A program made the position numbers and the translations under genes. Positions 24,721 to 44,792 of a stretch of 44,792 bases of DNA are shown here, one piece after another (the stretch's first letter is position 1; every line of letters begins with the position of its first letter). This DNA is from Chitinophaga pinensis (GTDB lineage: Bacteria; Bacteroidota; Bacteroidia; UBA7662), in contig CAMCHJ010000016.1 in the NCBI GenBank assembly GCA_945874665.1, positions 1 to 44,792 on the forward strand. The letters run 5' to 3'. The notes beneath the pieces are model-generated. The model was not told the DNA's origin. It ran no database searches and saw only the letters and a program-made list of their open reading frames with translations.

Positions 24721-24792
24721 GGCCCCGTAGTTCAACGGATAGAATAGAAGTTTCCTAAACTTTAGATGTGGTTTCGATTACCGCCGGGGCTA
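24721..24792 (+). tRNA. tRNA-Arg (anticodon CCT)
   Basis: A 72-base cloverleaf. The acceptor GGCCCCG pairs with CGGGGCT (a G:T at the terminal pair), the anticodon stem GAAGT pairs with ACTTT, the loop TTCCTAA gives anticodon CCT, and the T-arm reads GTGGT / ACCGC. Discriminator A; CCA not encoded. It decodes AGG. It sits exactly at the change from G+C-rich core to A+T-rich accessory DNA. Confidence 0.93.
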
Positions 24793-24816
24793 CAAGTGTA
24801 TGTAAATCAATTAGTT

Positions 24817-24854
24817 AAAGGGTATTTTCATCGTTGAAAATACCCTTTGTTTTT
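24817..24854 (+). terminator. Strong intrinsic terminator behind tRNA-Arg
   Basis: A perfect 14-base-pair stem (AAAGGGTATTTTCA / TGAAAATACCCTTT) with a TCGT loop is followed by GTTTTT. It isolates the tRNA from the island behind it. Confidence 0.88.
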
Positions 24855-24863
24855 GGAGGCGTG

Positions 24864-24882
24864 CAGTAAAGTGTGCAGTTGG
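24864..24882. repeat. Short direct repeat GTGCAGT beside the tRNA
   Basis: GTGCAGT occurs twice within 19 bases (GTGCAGTAAAGTGTGCAGT), about 70 bases after the tRNA-Arg. Such paired repeats could be arm-type integrase binding sites at an island end, but this is inference. The rest of 24,855-25,108 shows no gene that I can support. Confidence 0.35.
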
Positions 24883-25108
24883 GGTGGGAAATGGTGATGG
24901 GGAGGGGTGTAATTTGAGGTTTTTTTGAGAGGGTGTTAATTCGGCTTCCAATGATATTATCGGGTTAGTGGAAATAGAGCCTGGCCCATTTTTACTAGGT
25001 AATTACCCTAAGGGTGATTTAATAAAAAGCAGGAGGGTTACGAAGTACAGGAAGAATGTCAAAATGCCAATAATTCTAATTTTAGGCGTCCGAAGTATAG
25101 AGAGGGCT

Positions 25109-26008
25109 TCAACTCTTAAGCATGAAGTTCGCTCCGTTCGAAAAAAGCTGTAACTCCATGTTGTAATCGAGTGAAATGGTATGATTTGTACCACTATATA
25201 AGTTCTTTCGGTTAATCAAAATGGCTTCACTCAAATTTTCACTGTGCTTGAGCTCAGGCATACCGTAATAGCTAGGACGAACCAACATGAAGCAGAAATC
25301 GGCCATTTGGCCGATAAGGTCTGACGCTTCCAAATCACGTAGCTCTGGGAAGCGATTTTTTTTTCGCGTTTCTACCGTACGCTTTACTCCTGTAGTTATG
25401 AGTACGGGTGATTTAAGTGATTTTGCCAGCGATTGCAGGGCTGTCATGTTTTCTTCCCAAGCTTGTTTCGAAGAACTCCCTTTTTGTTTTTTCAGCAAAT
25501 GAAAGTCGTCGATCACGAGCATGCTGATGTTTGTTTGATTGCCTATGGCGAGGAGTTGCTGTTCCAACTCCTGCACAGTGCCTTGATGGCTCAATAAAAT
25601 AAGCTTGTCTTGCGCTAACTTGTTTAGAAAGGGGTGCGAGATAATTTGATTTTCTTCGGCTAGGTCAATTGCAGCTGTTTGGTATAGATGCCCTGGTGTT
25701 TGTGTTGCAATACAAATTAGTCTTTTTAACACAAACGAACTGTCATCATTACAACTAACCAAGATGATTGAGGAATCGACTGGAAGGACGGATACCTGAT
25801 TGTAAACGACGTTTAGTGCGAAAATGGTTTTTCCCATCCCTGGCCTTGCTCCAAGGGTAGTGATGGTGCCCGCTTCAAATCCACCCCCTCCTAAGGCTTT
25901 GTCAAGGGCTGAGTAGCCCGAAGAGTGGGGTTTGGTTTCTTTCCTAAGTCGTTCCCTTAATTGTTGAAGTTCTTGTTTTAAGAGTGCACTTGTTTTTAAG
26001 TTGTCCAT
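25109..26008 (-). CDS. Stand-alone DnaB helicase C-terminal-like (RecA-fold) ATPase
   Basis: This 299-residue protein matches the C-terminal ATPase domain of replicative DnaB helicases but lacks their N-terminal domain; only ~30 residues of charged helix precede the core. SGYSALDKALGGG leads into Walker A GARPGMGKT at ~54-62. Walker B is MLVIDDFHLL, and an arginine-finger-like stretch appears near RDLEASDLIGQMADFCFML. It may be a helicase remnant, a phage or mobile-element loader, or a signal-transducing ATPase. It is the first island gene after the tRNA, on the minus strand, 258 bases downstream of the peptidase-like gene, with a possible small ORF between. Confidence 0.8.
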   Translation of the reverse strand: MDNLKTSALLKQELQQLRERLRKETKPHSSGYSALDKALGGGGFEAGTITTLGARPGMGKTIFALNVVYNQVSVLPVDSSIILVSCNDDSSFVLKRLICIATQTPGHLYQTAAIDLAEENQIISHPFLNKLAQDKLILLSHQGTVQELEQQLLAIGNQTNISMLVIDDFHLLKKQKGSSSKQAWEENMTALQSLAKSLKSPVLITTGVKRTVETRKKNRFPELRDLEASDLIGQMADFCFMLVRPSYYGMPELKHSENLSEAILINRKNLYSGTNHTISLDYNMELQLFSNGANFMLKS

Positions 26009-38019: not shown

Positions 38020-38090
38020 AAATATTTTTTTTAAAAAAAAGTTAATTTGTAAATACCATAGAATCTAGGGCTGTAACCTTGCATCCATGA
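38020..38090 (+). promoter_or_regulatory. Conserved upstream block, copy A
   Basis: A poly-T/poly-A stretch, TTTGTAA, AATCT and TTGCATCCATGA are arranged almost without gaps as in copy B at 44564-44634. TAACCTTG (38074-38081) is a near -7 box. The exact match TTGCATCCATGA (38079-38090) is likely the transcription start region. The block precedes paralogous genes in both places, so it is probably their promoter and leader. An 11-base direct repeat TTTTAAAAACG lies further upstream near 37,909 and 37,950. Confidence 0.6.
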
Positions 38091-38171
38091 ACAAGTAACA
38101 TAAAATCTCCAAACAAATTAATGGTCACCAATCAGGTGTATAATATTTATAATCTAACAAAAGGAGATATT

Positions 38172-38759
38172 ATGTTTAAGCAAAAAAGTAAATTAAAAGA
38201 AAACTTTGTCGGTCGACTGGAACAAACACCTGTAAAAACCAATCGTTTCTTATGGCACATTAAGTACCGTGATTACCAAAGCGATTTGGGCATTGCTGCT
38301 AATGGCTTACTGCGCCCTGAAGAATATGCTGTTTTTGCACATAACAATGCAGTTTACTTTGGCATTACCTATCCATATTTTGTAGATTTGGAATTGGAAA
38401 TGAATAGTATGGGGCCTTTTTATGACTTTTCTAACTACAGTTTTTGGAGAATCGACACTTTGCTGGCGAATGTAGATTGGTATACTGATCCCAATATGGT
38501 GGAGGATTCTGAAATTGTGGGTTCCAAGCCCCATAACTATGTTTGCACACTAAATGATATTCCTAACCATGCGCTCAAACTTTTTAAATACGATTGTGAG
38601 CGTTACCTAACTCAACGCCCCTTTATCACTCGAGGTGATGGTGTGGCATCAGTTCGCCCCTACAGAAACGACTTTGATTCGTTGGTTCCTGACGTCAAAA
38701 TAAACGACTACATAAAATGGCGAAATGAAAATATTACGCCTTGGAGCAACGCGGCTTAG
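38172..38759 (+). CDS. Unknown protein with ADP-ribosyltransferase-like N-terminus, copy A
   Basis: This 195-residue protein has no named family that I can give. RFLWHIKYRD, then ANGLL ~15 residues on, then VFAHNN and VYFGI resemble the start of ADP-ribosyltransferase folds (H..., GL, VYFA-like strand) as in DarT or KptA. His29 would be the first motif. A catalytic Glu cannot be fixed. The ATG at 38172 is chosen because an AAAGGAG ribosome site lies before it and because it aligns without gaps with copy B at 44719; an in-frame ATG at 38121 is rejected. The first 25 residues of both copies share RL-(E/Q)-T-x-VKT-x-R. Confidence 0.6.
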   Translation: MFKQKSKLKENFVGRLEQTPVKTNRFLWHIKYRDYQSDLGIAANGLLRPEEYAVFAHNNAVYFGITYPYFVDLELEMNSMGPFYDFSNYSFWRIDTLLANVDWYTDPNMVEDSEIVGSKPHNYVCTLNDIPNHALKLFKYDCERYLTQRPFITRGDGVASVRPYRNDFDSLVPDVKINDYIKWRNENITPWSNAA

Positions 38760-38829
38760 CCTCACTCCACAGTAAGCAGCACTTGTATTTCAAAAATCAC
38801 GGTTTAGAAACAAACATCAATTTAAAACA

Positions 38830-39270
38830 ATGAAAAAATTAACTTTCTTTTCAATCATTCTCCTTACATCTGGATTTGTAAATGCCCAATCAAACGTTAG
38901 AAGAGGATATAGCTCATCTGGAGACATTCTTTACAATTGGGACGGTAAAAATCTTCGTAAAGGGTACAGCTCTTCTGGTGACATTCTAATAAACTTCGAT
39001 GGGAAAAATATCAGAAAAGGATATAGTTCTTCTGGAGATATTTTATACAACTGGGACGGTAAAAATTTTCGTTCAGGATACAGCTCTTCAGGCGATATCA
39101 TATATAACTGGGACGGGTTGAATATGCGGCAAGGTTATAGTTCATCAGGCAATATTGTGTACAATTATGATGGCAAAAATGTACGCCAGGGATATAGTTC
39201 GTCTGGCGAGATATATTACAATACTGATGGTAAAATCCCTATTGCAGTGTTAATCTATATAATTCACTAG
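38830..39270 (+). CDS. Secreted protein of six 19-residue repeats
   Basis: After a signal peptide (residues 1-19, ending FVNA) the 146-residue protein is built of six tandem 19-residue units at 26-139 starting GYSSSG and carrying YNWDGKN. A short hydrophobic tail (VLIYIIH) follows. The DNA repeats differ at many synonymous sites, so the protein unit is kept by selection and is not a fresh duplication. Such repeats would form a beta-solenoid or beta-hairpin array. I do not know a function. Confidence 0.8.
   Translation: MKKLTFFSIILLTSGFVNAQSNVRRGYSSSGDILYNWDGKNLRKGYSSSGDILINFDGKNIRKGYSSSGDILYNWDGKNFRSGYSSSGDIIYNWDGLNMRQGYSSSGNIVYNYDGKNVRQGYSSSGEIYYNTDGKIPIAVLIYIIH
38905..39246 (+). repeat. 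Six 57-base coding repeats
   Basis: Tandem units within the secreted repeat protein, each coding one 19-residue GYSSSG...DGKN unit. Unit boundaries are 57 bases apart from 38905. The last unit is degenerate at its end. Confidence 0.85.
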
Positions 39271-39458
39271 TGTCAGCATAGAATGGAGGATTTGGAAATT
39301 ATTGGGCAAGGTTGCAATAAGTGACGTATGCCCATTTCTTTCAACCACCTGACTAAGGTGCTTTGGAGTTATAATTTTACTAAGATAAGTGGCTTTGTAT
39401 ATTCGTTACAATCAGTCTCTTTAGGTTTGCTTTCATCTTAAAGAAAAATATAATAAAC

Positions 39459-39752
39459 ATGAACAAAGCAGTCCGCCAACTCATCAAATGGGAATCAAAA
39501 AGCGTTACATTGCCTTTTTACGGGTTAATGACCGGCATTTCAGCCACTTGGTCATTCATACTACTGAGTGATATTTCTGATACAGCTGTATTAATGGCAG
39601 GTTTAGCACTGATTTTCACAGCTATTTTGATAAGCTGGAGAGCGTATATTTTATACCTGAATAAAACAGTATCCTCAAGAAAGGCCATTCATAAAGCACA
39701 GTTGAGGTTGAAAGAACATAATTCTCAGATAAAAAAGAACAGATATCTGTAA
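39459..39752 (+). CDS. Small two-helix membrane protein
   Basis: A 97-residue protein with two membrane helices at ~18-36 and ~43-65, and a basic, probably cytoplasmic C-terminal helix. No family is recognised. The 188 bases before it contain only a weak CACCT/AGGTG hairpin. It could be an anchor or regulator, but nothing in the sequence decides this. Confidence 0.65.
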   Translation: MNKAVRQLIKWESKSVTLPFYGLMTGISATWSFILLSDISDTAVLMAGLALIFTAILISWRAYILYLNKTVSSRKAIHKAQLRLKEHNSQIKKNRYL

Positions 39753-39802
39753 GCCTTGGAATCAATACTAATCTAATGTTCTCTCTTAACTAACCTCAGC
39801 AC

Positions 39803-40318
39803 ATGAAACGATTTATAACTGCGAATATAATTATGGTGTTGTGCACTGCTTTTTCTGTACATGCACAAGTTGATTCTGTGACATACTACATACAGCAACT
39901 GATGCCAAACAGGAATGTTGTTCGCTTTGCACCATTGAACAAGGCTGCTATGATACACGCTAAGTACATGATTGCACACAAAAAAACTTGTCACTTACAA
40001 GACGAAAATCCCAACCATCATTCAGTACGAGAAAGAACAGCATCAGCTGGTGATAAAAGCGATTTTGGTTATAGAGAGGTCGTTTGGGGGGGAGAACCAT
40101 ATCTAGGAAGCAGTATCAAAGAGTCAATATATTATTTCCAAGGAAGCACAAATCATTGGGAAATCTTAACAGATCAAGCGGGCCCTCAATTGAATATTAA
40201 GTTCGGCTACGCTCGTATAACGACTTCTAGATACGATGTGTGTGTGATTGTATTGACTAATTTTTATTATGACGATCCTGACTCGATTATGCCAAAACCC
40301 AGTTATTTGATGGATTAA
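39803..40318 (+). CDS. CAP/SCP-domain secreted protein
   Basis: This 171-residue protein has a signal peptide ending near VHAQ and a CAP-superfamily domain. Recognisable blocks are LNKAAMIHAKYMIAHKK with His, RERTASAG, REVVWGGE with Glu, GSTNHWEIL and IKFGYARI. CAP proteins are secreted or periplasmic with varied roles. It is followed 21 bases later by the AAA+ gene on the same strand, but coupling is not certain. Confidence 0.72.
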   Translation: MKRFITANIIMVLCTAFSVHAQVDSVTYYIQQLMPNRNVVRFAPLNKAAMIHAKYMIAHKKTCHLQDENPNHHSVRERTASAGDKSDFGYREVVWGGEPYLGSSIKESIYYFQGSTNHWEILTDQAGPQLNIKFGYARITTSRYDVCVIVLTNFYYDDPDSIMPKPSYLMD

Positions 40319-40339
40319 GTAAGAGTAGACGCTAAAATC

Positions 40340-42007
40340 ATGAAACCAATGCAAATACCGGAAGAAAATAAGCTTTTAAGAAGCATTACAAGGCTTTACG
40401 AGCACAAGGAAAAAATGATGCAGTCAGAGGCTGTCCTCTTATCCATGAACCAGGATATTGAAGTGGTAGCCTCTTTTTTAGGCCTAGACAAGAATTATGC
40501 TCCGCTGATAGCCGTAATGATTTGCGAGCAACTTATCGGCGAAAACAGCCCTTACAATCGACTCATGAAACTCATGGGATATAGTGCTTATGATATTGTA
40601 GCTATGGAACGCGTATTAAAGGGATGGGTAAAGAAACGCTGGATAAGGAGCAAACGGCACAAGTATTCTGGAAGGTCTATGAGTACTTATGAGTTTGAAA
40701 AACGCTTCATGGATGCCGTTCATTTTGAAGATGTAAAAAAGCTAGCTGATCCACACATAAATGACCCTTACTTTGCGATGCTTGAGTTAAAAAAGAAAAT
40801 GCAACGCTACCTTGGAGAATTTGAATTTGATGAGTTGACAACAAATATTTGTGAACAAGCAGCCGAATCTTTGGATATAAGATTTATCGCTCATATCCTA
40901 AAAGATGAACAGTTAATTGATCCTGAAAAGGCAGTCATGTTGTGGTTAGGCGTTGAGTGGATCAGTGGAAAGGAAGAGTTTGATTTTGAACAAATCATAG
41001 AAATGTTCACTCAAGACCCCAGTTATGTGTACTGGTTTAAAAAACGCCTAAAGTCTGGGGAGAGTAAATTGCTATCTAATGGCTTAATACAAATGATTAA
41101 GCCTGATTTTAGTGATTTTTCTCTGGTCCGATTAGGTGAAGAACTCGTTGACATGCTACTAGAAGTAAAGGTCGATACGGCATCAAAAACGCCAGCATTA
41201 CGGTACAGTAAGTTGCTAGAACCAGATAATCTGCCGCAGCAGCAATTGTTTTTCAATAAATCTATGGAAGTCGAACGCGACCGCGTTGAAAAGATGCTGA
41301 CCGAACCAGCATTCTCTGACTTGATGCTTAAATTCAAGGAAAATGGGTTTCCAATGGCATTGACAATGCTTTTTCATGGGCAACCTGGAACTGGAAAAAC
41401 GGCATTAGCACATCAATTAGCCAAGTTTAGTAATCGCTACGTATGCCAAGTAGATATTTCGAATATTAGAGACATGTGGGTAGGGGAATCCGAAAAAAAT
41501 CTGAAACGCGTTTTCAAGGAGTATGCCTACTTATCAAAAAAAACCGACAACATTCCGATTTTGCTATTTAATGAAGCGGATGCCATTTTTGGCGTTAGAA
41601 CCAGTGTTGCAACCGCAGTTGATCAAATGAATAACTCTTTGCAGAATATATTGCTACAAGAATTGGAAGATTTTGAAGGCATTTTCATAGCGACAACCAA
41701 TCTAATTAAAAACATCGACGCTGCTTTTGATAGACGATTAGTATATAAGTTGCATTTTGAATTACCCGATTTAACAACCGCATCAAACATCCTAAATAAT
41801 GAGTTTGCTGGATATAATCCAGAATTTTTAGGCTTAATTTCTCAAAAGTATCGATTGTCTGGGGGTCAGATCAGCAATGTTAAGCGTAAACTACTTACAG
41901 AGTCATTGCTTCAGAATTGTGCCACGCATCCAGAAGAGTTGTTAATTGAATTTCTAGCAAAAGAAAGTGGTTTTAGGAACAGAAAAACCAATATAGGGTT
42001 CAATTAA
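40340..42007 (+). CDS. AAA+ ATPase with an N-terminal helical domain
   Basis: This 555-residue protein has ~310 residues of helical N-terminal sequence and a C-terminal AAA+ domain. Walker A is GQPGTGKTALA (~residues 352-362), followed by MWVGESEKNLKRVF. Walker B reads ILLFNEADAIF, with Asn in place of the usual Asp, and sensor 1 is FIATTNLI. An arginine-finger region follows in DAAFDRRL. It is related to the classical AAA clade. Its substrate is unknown. It is 55 bases upstream of a WYL regulator, a pairing that suggests a regulated accessory system. Confidence 0.85.
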   Translation: MKPMQIPEENKLLRSITRLYEHKEKMMQSEAVLLSMNQDIEVVASFLGLDKNYAPLIAVMICEQLIGENSPYNRLMKLMGYSAYDIVAMERVLKGWVKKRWIRSKRHKYSGRSMSTYEFEKRFMDAVHFEDVKKLADPHINDPYFAMLELKKKMQRYLGEFEFDELTTNICEQAAESLDIRFIAHILKDEQLIDPEKAVMLWLGVEWISGKEEFDFEQIIEMFTQDPSYVYWFKKRLKSGESKLLSNGLIQMIKPDFSDFSLVRLGEELVDMLLEVKVDTASKTPALRYSKLLEPDNLPQQQLFFNKSMEVERDRVEKMLTEPAFSDLMLKFKENGFPMALTMLFHGQPGTGKTALAHQLAKFSNRYVCQVDISNIRDMWVGESEKNLKRVFKEYAYLSKKTDNIPILLFNEADAIFGVRTSVATAVDQMNNSLQNILLQELEDFEGIFIATTNLIKNIDAAFDRRLVYKLHFELPDLTTASNILNNEFAGYNPEFLGLISQKYRLSGGQISNVKRKLLTESLLQNCATHPEELLIEFLAKESGFRNRKTNIGFN

Positions 42008-42061
42008 TCGATGATTTCATTAGTTTTGATGAGTAACTTTCCACTAGCAAAAAGGACAAAT

Positions 42062-43051
42062 ATGCCGACAAACAAAAATGCTTATTTGAGATTCCGTATT
42101 ATTGACGAATGTTTAAGGAATAAAAACAAGTACTTTAATCGGCATTCTATCGCAGACAGAATCAGTGATAAACTTGGCTATAATGTCTCTGTAAACGCTA
42201 TCGATAAGGATATACGAGCTTTGAAAGAGGAGTTTGACGCTCCAATAAAGTATGATAAATTTCAAAACCGTTATTATTACGCTCACAGCTTTTCATTAGC
42301 AAGTGTAGAACTAAATCATGATGAAGAGGATGCCCTCAACTTGAGCCTATCTATCCTTGATATACTAAAAGAGACAAAATATGCGAAATCGTACAAGAAT
42401 TTAATCCAAAAACTAGTTACACGAGCAACTAAAGGAGAAAATGATGGCATAATTGAATTCGAACAAACGCCAGTTCAGCTCGATTCTAGCATATTCGATG
42501 CGTTGTACGATGCAATCAAAAGGAAAGAAGCGCTCGTAATCACGTACCAAGTGTATGGAAAGCAAAGGAAAAATCACACCGTTTCTCCATACATGATAAA
42601 GGAGTACCGCAACCGATTTTATTTAGTCGCGAGGGAGCATATGACTGAAAATGACAATGAGTTAATTTTTTGTTTCGGGATGGATAGAATAAAGTCAGTA
42701 GCAAAAGCAAAAGAACCTTTTTTGGTCACCCACGGATTTACTCCAAAAGACTTTTTTAAACACAGCTTTGGTATTTCCAGAGATTTGCAGAAAGAACCAA
42801 TGACATTAGTTTTAAAATTCAACAATCTTATTGCGCCGTATATACTGTCTAAACCATTACATCCTAGTCAGCAAATAGTAGAACAAACAGAAGCTTATTT
42901 AACGGTTATCATTGTGGTTTTTGAATCTTTTGAATTGAACATGGCTATTCTTGGCTATGGTTCTAGGGTAGAGGTTTTGTCGCCAAAGAGCTACATTGAT
43001 TACCTTAAAAATGAAATAAATGGCATGAATCAGATATATAGAAAAAGATAA
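42062..43051 (+). CDS. WYL-domain transcriptional regulator
   Basis: This 329-residue protein has an N-terminal winged helix-turn-helix (YFNRHSIADRIS, VNAIDKDIRALKEEF) and a C-terminal WYL domain with VITYQVYGKQRKNHTVSPYMIKEY and RFYLVAR, and a C-terminal WCX-like part. WYL regulators bind nucleotides or nucleic acid and often control defence genes. The ATG at 42062 (MPTNKNAYLRF) is chosen as the domain start; an upstream ATG at 42011 would add 17 residues. It follows the AAA+ gene. Confidence 0.85.
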   Translation: MPTNKNAYLRFRIIDECLRNKNKYFNRHSIADRISDKLGYNVSVNAIDKDIRALKEEFDAPIKYDKFQNRYYYAHSFSLASVELNHDEEDALNLSLSILDILKETKYAKSYKNLIQKLVTRATKGENDGIIEFEQTPVQLDSSIFDALYDAIKRKEALVITYQVYGKQRKNHTVSPYMIKEYRNRFYLVAREHMTENDNELIFCFGMDRIKSVAKAKEPFLVTHGFTPKDFFKHSFGISRDLQKEPMTLVLKFNNLIAPYILSKPLHPSQQIVEQTEAYLTVIIVVFESFELNMAILGYGSRVEVLSPKSYIDYLKNEINGMNQIYRKR

Positions 43052-43176
43052 AATTTAACTTTTGTGGTTATCCTGGAGTTTAAAATTTAAGCAGTGATAA
43101 GTTTATATTACCTAAAGTGCAGGATTAGAAGTTTCTATAAGAAGATACAAAGATAAAATCGATTGAAACAATTATT

Positions 43177-43725
43177 ATGTTAGAACCATTTGCAAAAGCG
43201 GCCTGGCTGTTAGAAGAAGAGAAACGTGCTATAAAAGCAAATCATAGTTACCTCGAAAATTCTAAAAAAGTGACCAGTTACATCGATCATCTCATTGATC
43301 GCTGTATTAGAACAGCATCAAATCTCCTCATGCCTAATGCCTCAAAAAATGCATTGCGTATGGCGAAAAGGCTAAATATTGATCTTTTTGCCGCAAAAGA
43401 GGGAGATAAGATGAATATGAAAAACTATTGTCTCGCAAATAACGAATCAGATTATTTTTTTTATGAACATAAAGAGACAGTTTCAGAATTGAGAAAGCGA
43501 ATTGCTACATGTGCCTCTTTACAAGAGGTGTTGCTGGTTTTTAATTCTATCGAGGTAGTTTGGGTACTGAATTCTGAAAATATGAAACTAGTATCCAATG
43601 GTCATAATTCAAAAAGAAGCAACGCAACTGCTGCGTATGAGCTTGCTGGCATTGAGGTCGAGCTATCAAGTTACACAGACTACCAACTATGGAAGAAGTC
43701 AAAGTGGAAAGCTAAAGGGCATTAG
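43177..43725 (+). CDS. Unknown protein, 182 residues
   Basis: No family is recognised. The N-terminal half is basic and helical (LLEEEKRAIKANHSYLENSK, RMAKRLNIDLF). The C-terminal half is alpha/beta with VVWVLNSENMKLVSNG. It is separated by 125 bases from the WYL gene and is convergent with the peptidase-like gene; a small AGAG/CTCT hairpin followed by six T lies at the stop. Confidence 0.65.
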   Translation: MLEPFAKAAWLLEEEKRAIKANHSYLENSKKVTSYIDHLIDRCIRTASNLLMPNASKNALRMAKRLNIDLFAAKEGDKMNMKNYCLANNESDYFFYEHKETVSELRKRIATCASLQEVLLVFNSIEVVWVLNSENMKLVSNGHNSKRSNATAAYELAGIEVELSSYTDYQLWKKSKWKAKGH

Positions 43726-43739
43726 AGCCGCTCTTTTTT
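43724..43739 (+). terminator. Weak intrinsic terminator
   Basis: AGAG and CTCT flank a CCG loop, with six T behind. The stem overlaps the stop codon of the 182-residue gene. It is short and may work poorly. Confidence 0.35.
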
Positions 43740-44493
43740 AGCTGGAAGTGCAATTAATGAATCCAACCAAAACGTTTGGATGTTTTTTTTCAAAATCCAG
43801 GATGCAATTTTTTGGAAAGTCATTTTGTCCCAAGTCAAATAGTCTTTCATTTTCTTCTGGACTAAACGCGTCGCCACACCACCAAAATGGATATTCAGCG
43901 TGAAGGTGATTATTTGCAATTTCCTTTATTCGTTCATACAGTTCCGCATCACTTGGATCTTGCTCAATATGTACGAATGCATCGAACAATATGCCCCACG
44001 GTAAGTTGCCAATGGGTTTTCCTAGTTGCTTATCCTCTGTACAATAATCCGTGTAAACTTTTCTTTGACCTTCTTTCATTGTGGAGAACGTTTGGTAATG
44101 CTCATCGGATAGCTCTTGACAGACTTTGTGCGTCAATAGTTGAGCAAATGACTCCAAAAATAATCTGTTCCATGCGCAAAAGAATTTGGCGCCAATGAGG
44201 TGATAGTGAACAAAATGGCTTATTTCATGAATGGCGATAATCTCTGCCACAATAGCTGGATTAAATCGTTTCCGTAATGCTAATTCATTTATTTTGTCAA
44301 CACACAAATATACCCTCTCTGGGGTAATACAATCAAAATAACCTAGCGTGTCAAAGTCGCCTAAGTCATTACCTTTTTCAATACACTTTTCTAAAAATGT
44401 AAATAATGGCCGGTCGAAATGCAGTTGCTTTTTGTTCTGTAACTTCTCCGAAACATACTTGAATAAAACCGATTGTCTGTCGATGGATATCAT
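43738..44493 (-). CDS. HExxH metallopeptidase-like protein
   Basis: This 251-residue cytoplasmic protein has a zinc motif HEISHFVHYH at ~89-98 and a following LFLESFAQLLTHK at ~111-123, whose Glu could be the third ligand. Cysteine and tryptophan are common in the C-terminal half (YPFWWCGDAF). The frame starts at a TTG at 44502 but the ATG at 44493 is the simpler start. I cannot name the family. It lies just before the copy B block, pointing the other way. Confidence 0.7.
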   Translation of the reverse strand: MISIDRQSVLFKYVSEKLQNKKQLHFDRPLFTFLEKCIEKGNDLGDFDTLGYFDCITPERVYLCVDKINELALRKRFNPAIVAEIIAIHEISHFVHYHLIGAKFFCAWNRLFLESFAQLLTHKVCQELSDEHYQTFSTMKEGQRKVYTDYCTEDKQLGKPIGNLPWGILFDAFVHIEQDPSDAELYERIKEIANNHLHAEYPFWWCGDAFSPEENERLFDLGQNDFPKNCILDFEKKHPNVLVGFINCTSS

Positions 44494-44563
44494 AAAAACC
44501 AAATTTGGTAAGTGAAGGATTCATTGCTTAAACGAGTCTCAAAAATGAAAAAAAAATTGACGT

Positions 44564-44634
44564 GAAAATTTTTTTTGACAAAAAATGAAATTGTAATTTG
44601 ACTACAATCTGGTCAGCTAATATTGCATCCATGA
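44564..44634 (+). promoter_or_regulatory. Conserved upstream block, copy B
   Basis: Matches copy A (38020-38090): poly-T/poly-A, ATTGTAA, AATCT and TTGCATCCATGA, with TAATATTG at 44618-44625 as near -7 box. Precedes the paralogous gene at 44719. Confidence 0.6.
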
Positions 44635-44718
44635 GCGTGAATTAATACCTGTATCAAAATTACATGATTCAAGCAAAGTTTTATATAAATAGTAGGTATT
44701 TAAAAACCAGGAATGAGT

Positions 44719-44792
44719 ATGAGAACCAAGTATGAGTGGGAAAGTCGTGATTTTCTAAAGCGTTTAGACAAAACAGCGGTCAAAACGAGCCG
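44719..44792 (+). CDS. Paralogue of the 38172 gene, 5' end only (copy B)
   Basis: Only 24 full codons are inside the window. The translated residues align without gaps with the start of the 38172 protein: both start with Met at the same distance, and RLDKTAVKTSR here matches RLEQTPVKTNR there. About nine of 25 residues are identical, and most others are similar. An in-frame ATG at 44713 is a close alternative start. The rest of the protein is beyond the window. Confidence 0.65.
   Translation, partial: MRTKYEWESRDFLKRLDKTAVKTS

Follow-up and report, generated by a model that had tools for sequence, protein, structure and literature searches.

Why should two genes about 6.5 kb apart on one bacterial contig begin with matching N-termini behind matching upstream DNA? 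We studied this question in the window, a stretch of 44,792 nucleotides from Chitinophaga pinensis (assembly GCA_945874665.1, contig CAMCHJ010000016.1), which comprises the entire contig C16 of a Bacteroidota genome of 2.29 Mb in 35 contigs. The original prediction was that the genes starting at 38172 and 44719 (copies A and B) are duplicates behind a probably functional leader, which may mark either a modular locus that gains cassettes or a family of co-regulated effectors. We consider, with a probability of about 0.62, that A and B are paralogues with a fold like that of ADP-ribosyltransferases (ART), that the leader is a promoter with a dyad, and that both copies belong to a regulon of three units, controlled by a WYL protein and probably directed against viruses.

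The duplicated gene and its leader

38172..38759, plus strand: copy A, a 195-residue protein of an unannotated family with a predicted ART-like fold
44719..44792, plus strand: copy B, first 25 residues, cut at the contig end
38021..38090, plus strand: leader repeat on the A side (ungapped alignment)
44565..44634, plus strand: leader repeat on the B side (ungapped alignment)

The two N-termini align over 25 residues without gaps, as had been claimed, and the upstream match of about 70 bases amounts to a 71% ungapped match over 70 bp, with TTGCATCCATGA at 38079-38090 in A and at 44623-44634 in B. When gaps are allowed, the similarity of the leaders extends over about 140 bp with a score of 74, which was reached by none of 500 dinucleotide shuffles, and the best score among 475 other sampled upstream regions was 38. 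The sample of genome DNA used for some comparisons consisted of 893 kb, as stretches. Nucleotide identities of leader against coding DNA were discarded because they were near shuffled values, free gaps raising the identity of AT-rich DNA.

A lack of similarity past the first 25 residues had been named beforehand as refuting the duplication, and such similarity is present. A search of the whole genome with A gave just one further relative, at the very end of contig C19 (35941-36372, minus strand), which is 50% identical to A over 143 residues, and a family profile of 19 members gave the same two places, A itself and the C19 end. On its minus strand, C19 opens with the remainder of an A-like gene, beginning about 31 bp past the break in B, and a gene for 130 residues follows 77 nt after the end of this copy. 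Since C16 and C19 both break within the same stretch of about 31 bp of the gene, we infer that the contigs join there; the remainder of B is very probably this end of C19.

Judged by sequence, A and B are paralogues, and old ones whose promoters have been kept alike inside one genome. Protein A is 66% identical to its homologue in the related locus L029 (L-numbered loci, such as L019-L036, are sampled stretches) and 46% identical to B, which rules out a recent tandem duplication. On the other hand, the leader of A is closer to that of B than to that of L029, opposite to the order of the proteins. Such likeness of promoters in old paralogues is expected if one regulator governs both.

The dyad promoter and its recurrence

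38047..38063, plus strand: dyad TTGTAaataccaTAGAA, with one mismatch, in the promoter of A, 10 bp before the -7 box
38074..38090, plus strand: -7 box TAACCTTG and common initiation region of A, including TTGCATCCATGA
38105..38168, plus strand: leader stem ATCTCC (38105-38110) / GGAGAT (38163-38168) over the ribosome-binding site of A (z -2.6)
39395..39429, plus strand: perfect composite promoter TTGTAtattcgtTACAA-N10-TAGGTTTG at the head of an operon encoding proteins of 97 and 171 residues, an AAA ATPase and a WYL protein
44591..44625, plus strand: perfect composite promoter TTGTAatttgacTACAA-N10-TAATATTG of copy B

The leaders contain a composite element, in which a 17-bp dyad, TTGTA-N7-TACAA, is followed after exactly 10 bp by TAnnnTTG (16 defined letters). 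TAACCTTGCA in A and TAATATTGCA in B are Bacteroidota -7 boxes. The promoter consensus of this phylum is TAnnTTTG (PMC10309648), and the enrichment in this genome agrees, with 161 cases of TAnnTTTG upstream of genes against 40 expected from coding DNA, and 19 of TTG-N17-25-TAnnNTTGCA against 0.7. The usual -33 element is absent or displaced in the dyad promoters, where the dyad occupies its place.

Only two sites of the whole genome have the perfect composite, 44591 (B) and 39395 (the AAA-WYL operon), and only two have it with one mismatch, A (38047) and one other. The leader motif had been expected not to occur at random, and TTGCATCCATGA was found three times in 2.29 Mb: in A, in B and, by chance, inside an nqrE-like coding sequence on contig C23. 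As a family tag TTGCATCCATGA was nevertheless rejected, because the common -7 box makes up its first half and the specific part is the dyad with its spacing.

The geometry recurs upstream of homologous genes in three other genomes. In L032, the perfect composite precedes both the ART-like gene and a 130-residue gene, and in L029 the same two positions carry, at the same spacing, TTGCT-N7-CGCAA and TTGTG-N7-CGCAA, respectively. A larger inverted repeat of L029, TTTGCGTT..AACGCAAA, lies in a slightly shifted register and agrees with the common geometry only in its inner TTGC..GCAA. In L033, the operon containing the WYL gene carries TTGTCataatttGACAA and the ART-like gene TAGTCataatttGACAA, both 10 bp before the -7 box and with the arms T[T/A]GTCataatttGACAA in common; the WYL protein of L033 is 21% identical to that of the window. 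A relaxed form of the dyad geometry gave 10 matches in 375 kb of ART/AAA loci, nine of them in promoters of the module (three in the window and two each in L029, L032 and L033), compared with 0.3 expected from shuffles and a single match in the other 818 kb sampled from this genome. The letters of the arms vary between organisms yet agree within one organism, which we read as the trace of a dimeric regulator that has evolved together with its sites.

Accordingly, the view of the leader as functional is supported, in the sense of a promoter with an operator-like dyad at a fixed spacing. The suspected co-regulation also gained ground, since A and B have the composite promoter in common and it also heads the AAA-WYL operon between them, a unit that the original prediction did not see. 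The shared promoter suggests that A, this operon and B are co-regulated.

The operon, the ART-like family and the island

39459..39752, plus strand: 97-residue protein of no family, with hydrophobic stretches, encoded first in the operon
39803..40318, plus strand: 171-residue protein with a signal-peptide-like start, no family
40340..42007, plus strand: 555-residue AAA+ ATPase, distantly like IetA/CdvC
42011..43051, plus strand: regulator with WYL and WCX domains, candidate regulator of the three promoters
43177..43725, plus strand: 182-residue protein, no family
43738..44502, minus strand: 254-residue protein, no family

The first four genes are separated by 50, 21 and 3 nt, and the WYL protein has the domain order HTH-WYL-WCX (WYL 1.3e-11, WCX 3.1e-7, with a weak HTH_11 match at 0.015). 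A homologue of the ATPase stands directly after the ART-like gene in L028, L029 and L032 (27-47% identity), and in the last two the ATPase gene is followed by the 130-residue gene, a homologue of that following copy B on C19. In the class sample, the ATPase homologue (E < 1e-45) was found in 29 of 394 other genomes and in four of the five others that have the ART-like gene (P = 1e-4); in three of those, both genes are on one contig, 1.4-8 kb apart. The commonest direct neighbour of the ATPase is a WYL regulator (12 loci). Thus, the ART-like gene is perhaps one optional partner of a broader AAA-WYL pair. This pair recurs across the class (L078-L098) with varying neighbours, among them DUF2779, exonuclease-like and GmrSD-like genes, and is possibly an undescribed defence module by itself.

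Copy A matched no sequence model of Pfam, PHROGs, NCBIfam, PADLOC or the PDB, and neither A alone nor a two-row alignment found relatives in genome contigs, viral contigs, phages, plasmids or the same order. Relatives came from a profile search at class level and from a scan of genome contigs with the central part of the alignment. These number about 20 and come from Bacteroidota genomes, with one exception that is labelled Sphingomonadales, and in the class sample 7 of 395 genomes had a match, one of which is likely false. One candidate, G387 (2086 residues), was dismissed as a chance match of 57 residues. These comparisons place A and B in a family that lacks annotation and occurs mainly in freshwater Bacteroidota. 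The contig titled Sphingomonadales (L036, VHBA01000058.1) groups, by its ART-like gene and its rny neighbourhood, within a Flavobacteriales clade and is probably mislabelled or mis-binned.

The conserved core consists of R25, H29, G45, [FY]55-A56, P68, Y89-x-FWRIDT, W103, D106, T126 and A134. Invariant among 19 members are R25, H29, R93, D95 and D106, where the invariance of the FWRIDT motif is partly due to selection, as members from the contig scan were chosen for it. An AlphaFold model from two sequences alone reached a predicted local distance difference test (pLDDT) score of 32.5, and the AlphaFold2 model of A from 19 sequences reached 88.8, with a predicted template modelling (TM) score of 0.84. 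When this model was compared with the PDB by Foldseek, the first 34 matches all had the ART fold (KptA/Tpt1, pertussis S1, DarT and cholera/LT A). This computed likeness is a strong hint, so that an ART-like fold of A is a good prediction, short of proof.

The gene neighbourhoods of some relatives fit this prediction. In L025, the ART-like gene is followed by a phosphatase gene on the same strand and then by an ADP-ribosylglycohydrolase gene (ADP_ribosyl_GH, 1e-73), and in L019 a fused double copy is preceded by two NADAR genes. The fused proteins of L019 (6001-7215) and L020 (6001-7203), from lake metagenome genomes, join two ART-like domains in 400 residues, with several NADAR genes upstream (L019/L020). 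A sister clade linked to rny has a different, strongly conserved structured leader (L026 5790-5945, L027 5776-5933, L035 5780-5936, L036 1036-1188 and L023 4515-4671). It consists of a CTCCC/GGGAG stem, a pseudoknot TGTCGGAA/TTCCGGCA and two hairpins, with 93.6% of cells paired (slid controls at most 53%), three compensatory pairs and no match in Rfam.

The region between A and B lies within a larger island at a transfer RNA (tRNA) gene, marked by att-like repeats that combine the 3' half of tRNA-Arg(CCT) with its terminator.

24721..24793, plus strand: tRNA-Arg(CCT)
24745-24900 of the window: att-like repeat
15544-15698 of L006 (C19:31931-32085): att-like repeat
3-141 of L117 (contig C24): att-like repeat
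1168-1317 and 3211-3365 of L116 (a genome of the same genus): att-like repeats

The 3' half of the tRNA gene, from 24745 in the anticodon arm, and about 130 bp beyond it are repeated on C19 (32085 to 31931) and C24, and in the genome of the same genus a copy follows that genome's tRNA-Arg at a distance of 1.9 kb, which includes one gene. Every copy begins at the same letter of the anticodon arm, TAGAAGTTTCCTAAACTTT. If C16 and C19 join as proposed, the direct repeat of the tRNA 3' end is present on the far side as well, and the island between the repeats would measure about 24.4 kb. The island further encodes a DnaB-like ATPase, a DUF2779 protein and a GmrSD_N protein, content of the defence type, and no integrase or recombinase was found among the island proteins scanned. 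From this layout, the 6.5 kb between the leaders is part of the island and no insertion unit by itself. The modular, cassette-gaining locus had therefore been placed in the right region with the wrong borders: the sites of gain are the att-like repeats at 24745 and on C19, not the leaders. The tRNA-Arg(CCT) repeats mark an accretion hotspot with small cassettes (one or two genes in the shortest), and a second repeat block, at 24929-25112 of the window, recurs on C19 and C24. Secreted proteins of tandem 19-residue repeats, of the 6-fold beta flower type, are encoded at 38830-39270 of the window and on C19 (L006 9119-9637 and 10280-10765).

The proposed regulon, its rivals and known systems

In the mechanism that we infer, a dimeric regulator, most likely the WYL protein, would bind the dyads and jointly control three units, namely A, the autoregulated 97aa-171aa-AAA-WYL operon, and B with the 130-residue gene. 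The WYL protein is the natural candidate because its gene lies in one of the units and because other proteins of this type, BrxR among them, are repressors of defence islands that bind to inverted repeats (PMC9122601). Control of the three promoters by the WYL protein is a good prediction. By analogy with BrxR and CapW, the regulator would keep the promoters repressed until a signal, for example infection, released them; the ART-like proteins, with the ATPase assisting or gating them, could then modify their target, a nucleic acid or a protein, and growth would stop.

Several observations weigh against this picture. The dyad geometry was not found in L034, L028 or the rny-linked clade, and besides the window a WYL-containing operon with a dyad site is seen only in L033; the data for L029 and L032 end short of the WYL promoter. 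The AAA-WYL pair is more widespread than the ART-like gene. The ART matches of Foldseek are weak (E at least 1.3e-3, TM-scores 0.3-0.4). Finally, compared with the catalytic signatures [H-Y-E] and [R-S-E], H29 and F/Y55 are conserved in the family, but none of the glutamates is invariant or near-invariant among the 19 members, so neither signature is complete.

We have also weighed simpler accounts of the leader. That it reflects common ancestry and an ordinary housekeeping promoter, with no special regulator, seems improbable: A and B do descend from one gene, TAnnNTTGCA is a normal promoter motif in this genome and the A/T tract makes up part of the 70-bp match, but the composite also precedes, at identical spacing, the non-homologous AAA-WYL operon and the 130-residue gene in L032 and L029, is essentially absent elsewhere in the genome, and ties A to B more closely than to L029 against the order of the proteins. 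The alternative of an RNA element, left open beside a promoter by the original prediction, fared less well than the promoter. A riboregulator, in which the leader stem would hide the ribosome-binding site and control translation, is consistent with the stems that A, L029 and L032 can form around this site (each with z about -2.6) and with the structured leader of the sister clade; we nevertheless hold it to be unlikely, as B has no such fold (z -1.0), a consensus structure was not found downstream of the -7 box, and the leaders are best conserved upstream of the point where transcription presumably starts. The foldable stems hint weakly at translational control as a secondary possibility. The leaders match no family in Rfam.

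A mobile cassette with the two leader repeats as its ends would explain why they have the same orientation and flank accessory genes, and why A and the AAA gene are three genes further apart than in L029 and L032. However, in four organisms the repeats serve functional genes as promoters, no recombinase was found among the proteins scanned, and the true att-like repeats are at tRNA-Arg(CCT) and on C19. The leaders were accordingly rejected as transposon ends, and we regard such a cassette as very improbable. A more serious rival, still unlikely in our view, accepts the ART-like fold and assigns it another function, such as a KptA-like RNA 2'-phosphotransferase, an RNA or NAD sensor, or an immunity protein. 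KptA and Tpt1 work without a catalytic glutamate; they are also the best fold matches, and the family has no invariant glutamate. On the other side, ADP-ribosylglycohydrolase and NADAR genes adjoin the relatives in L025 and L019, and the family is patchily distributed, island-borne and duplicated. We prefer the regulon of ART-like paralogues under WYL control. Its widest form is tentative: a defence system of mainly freshwater Bacteroidota, dependent on nicotinamide adenine dinucleotide (NAD), which would combine an ART-like effector without the classical glutamate, an AAA+ ATPase and a multi-promoter WYL regulon with a co-evolving operator.

These results provide a handle on a family that is absent from curated libraries and tied to an AAA-WYL operon by a precise common promoter, and they lead to a testable prediction of one regulator, three units and a dyad with a 10-bp spacing. 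WYL regulons are largely unknown, and operators that vary between organisms and match within them offer a direct route to the targets of WYL regulators. If the proteins ADP-ribosylate nucleic acids, they would represent a further lineage of ART-based bacterial defence.

Among known systems, the locus resembles BrxR and CapW in that a WYL protein is encoded with island genes of the defence type and an inverted repeat, here a putative operator, lies at the promoters of its own operon and of other units (PMC9122601). The operator of BrxR, however, has 11-bp repeats with a 5-bp spacer downstream of the -10 element (PMC9122601), whereas the putative operator here, TTGTA-N7-TACAA, keeps a constant distance of 10 bp to a Bacteroidota -7 box. 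The window AAA protein weakly matches models of IetA of the IetAS system (PADLOC 5e-22; NCBIfam IteA 73 bits, cut-off 510), but this score is far below the cut-off, no IetS protease was found among the neighbours scanned, and an ART-like gene is present instead. KptA and Tpt1 are the best fold matches to A (E 1.3e-3, probability 1.0), but with a TM-score of about 0.35, 14% identity, no match of the sequence profile and another genomic context. With DarT-DarG and DarT-NADAR, the family shares the predicted ART-like fold (Foldseek matches 7omx and 7omy) and relatives that adjoin NADAR or ADP-ribosylglycohydrolase genes (PMC11543638). It differs in that A has no DarT match in Pfam, NCBIfam, PADLOC or PHROGs, that no glutamate is invariant in the family, and that the island proteins scanned include no macrodomain, NADAR or ARH protein, the partner here being the AAA ATPase.

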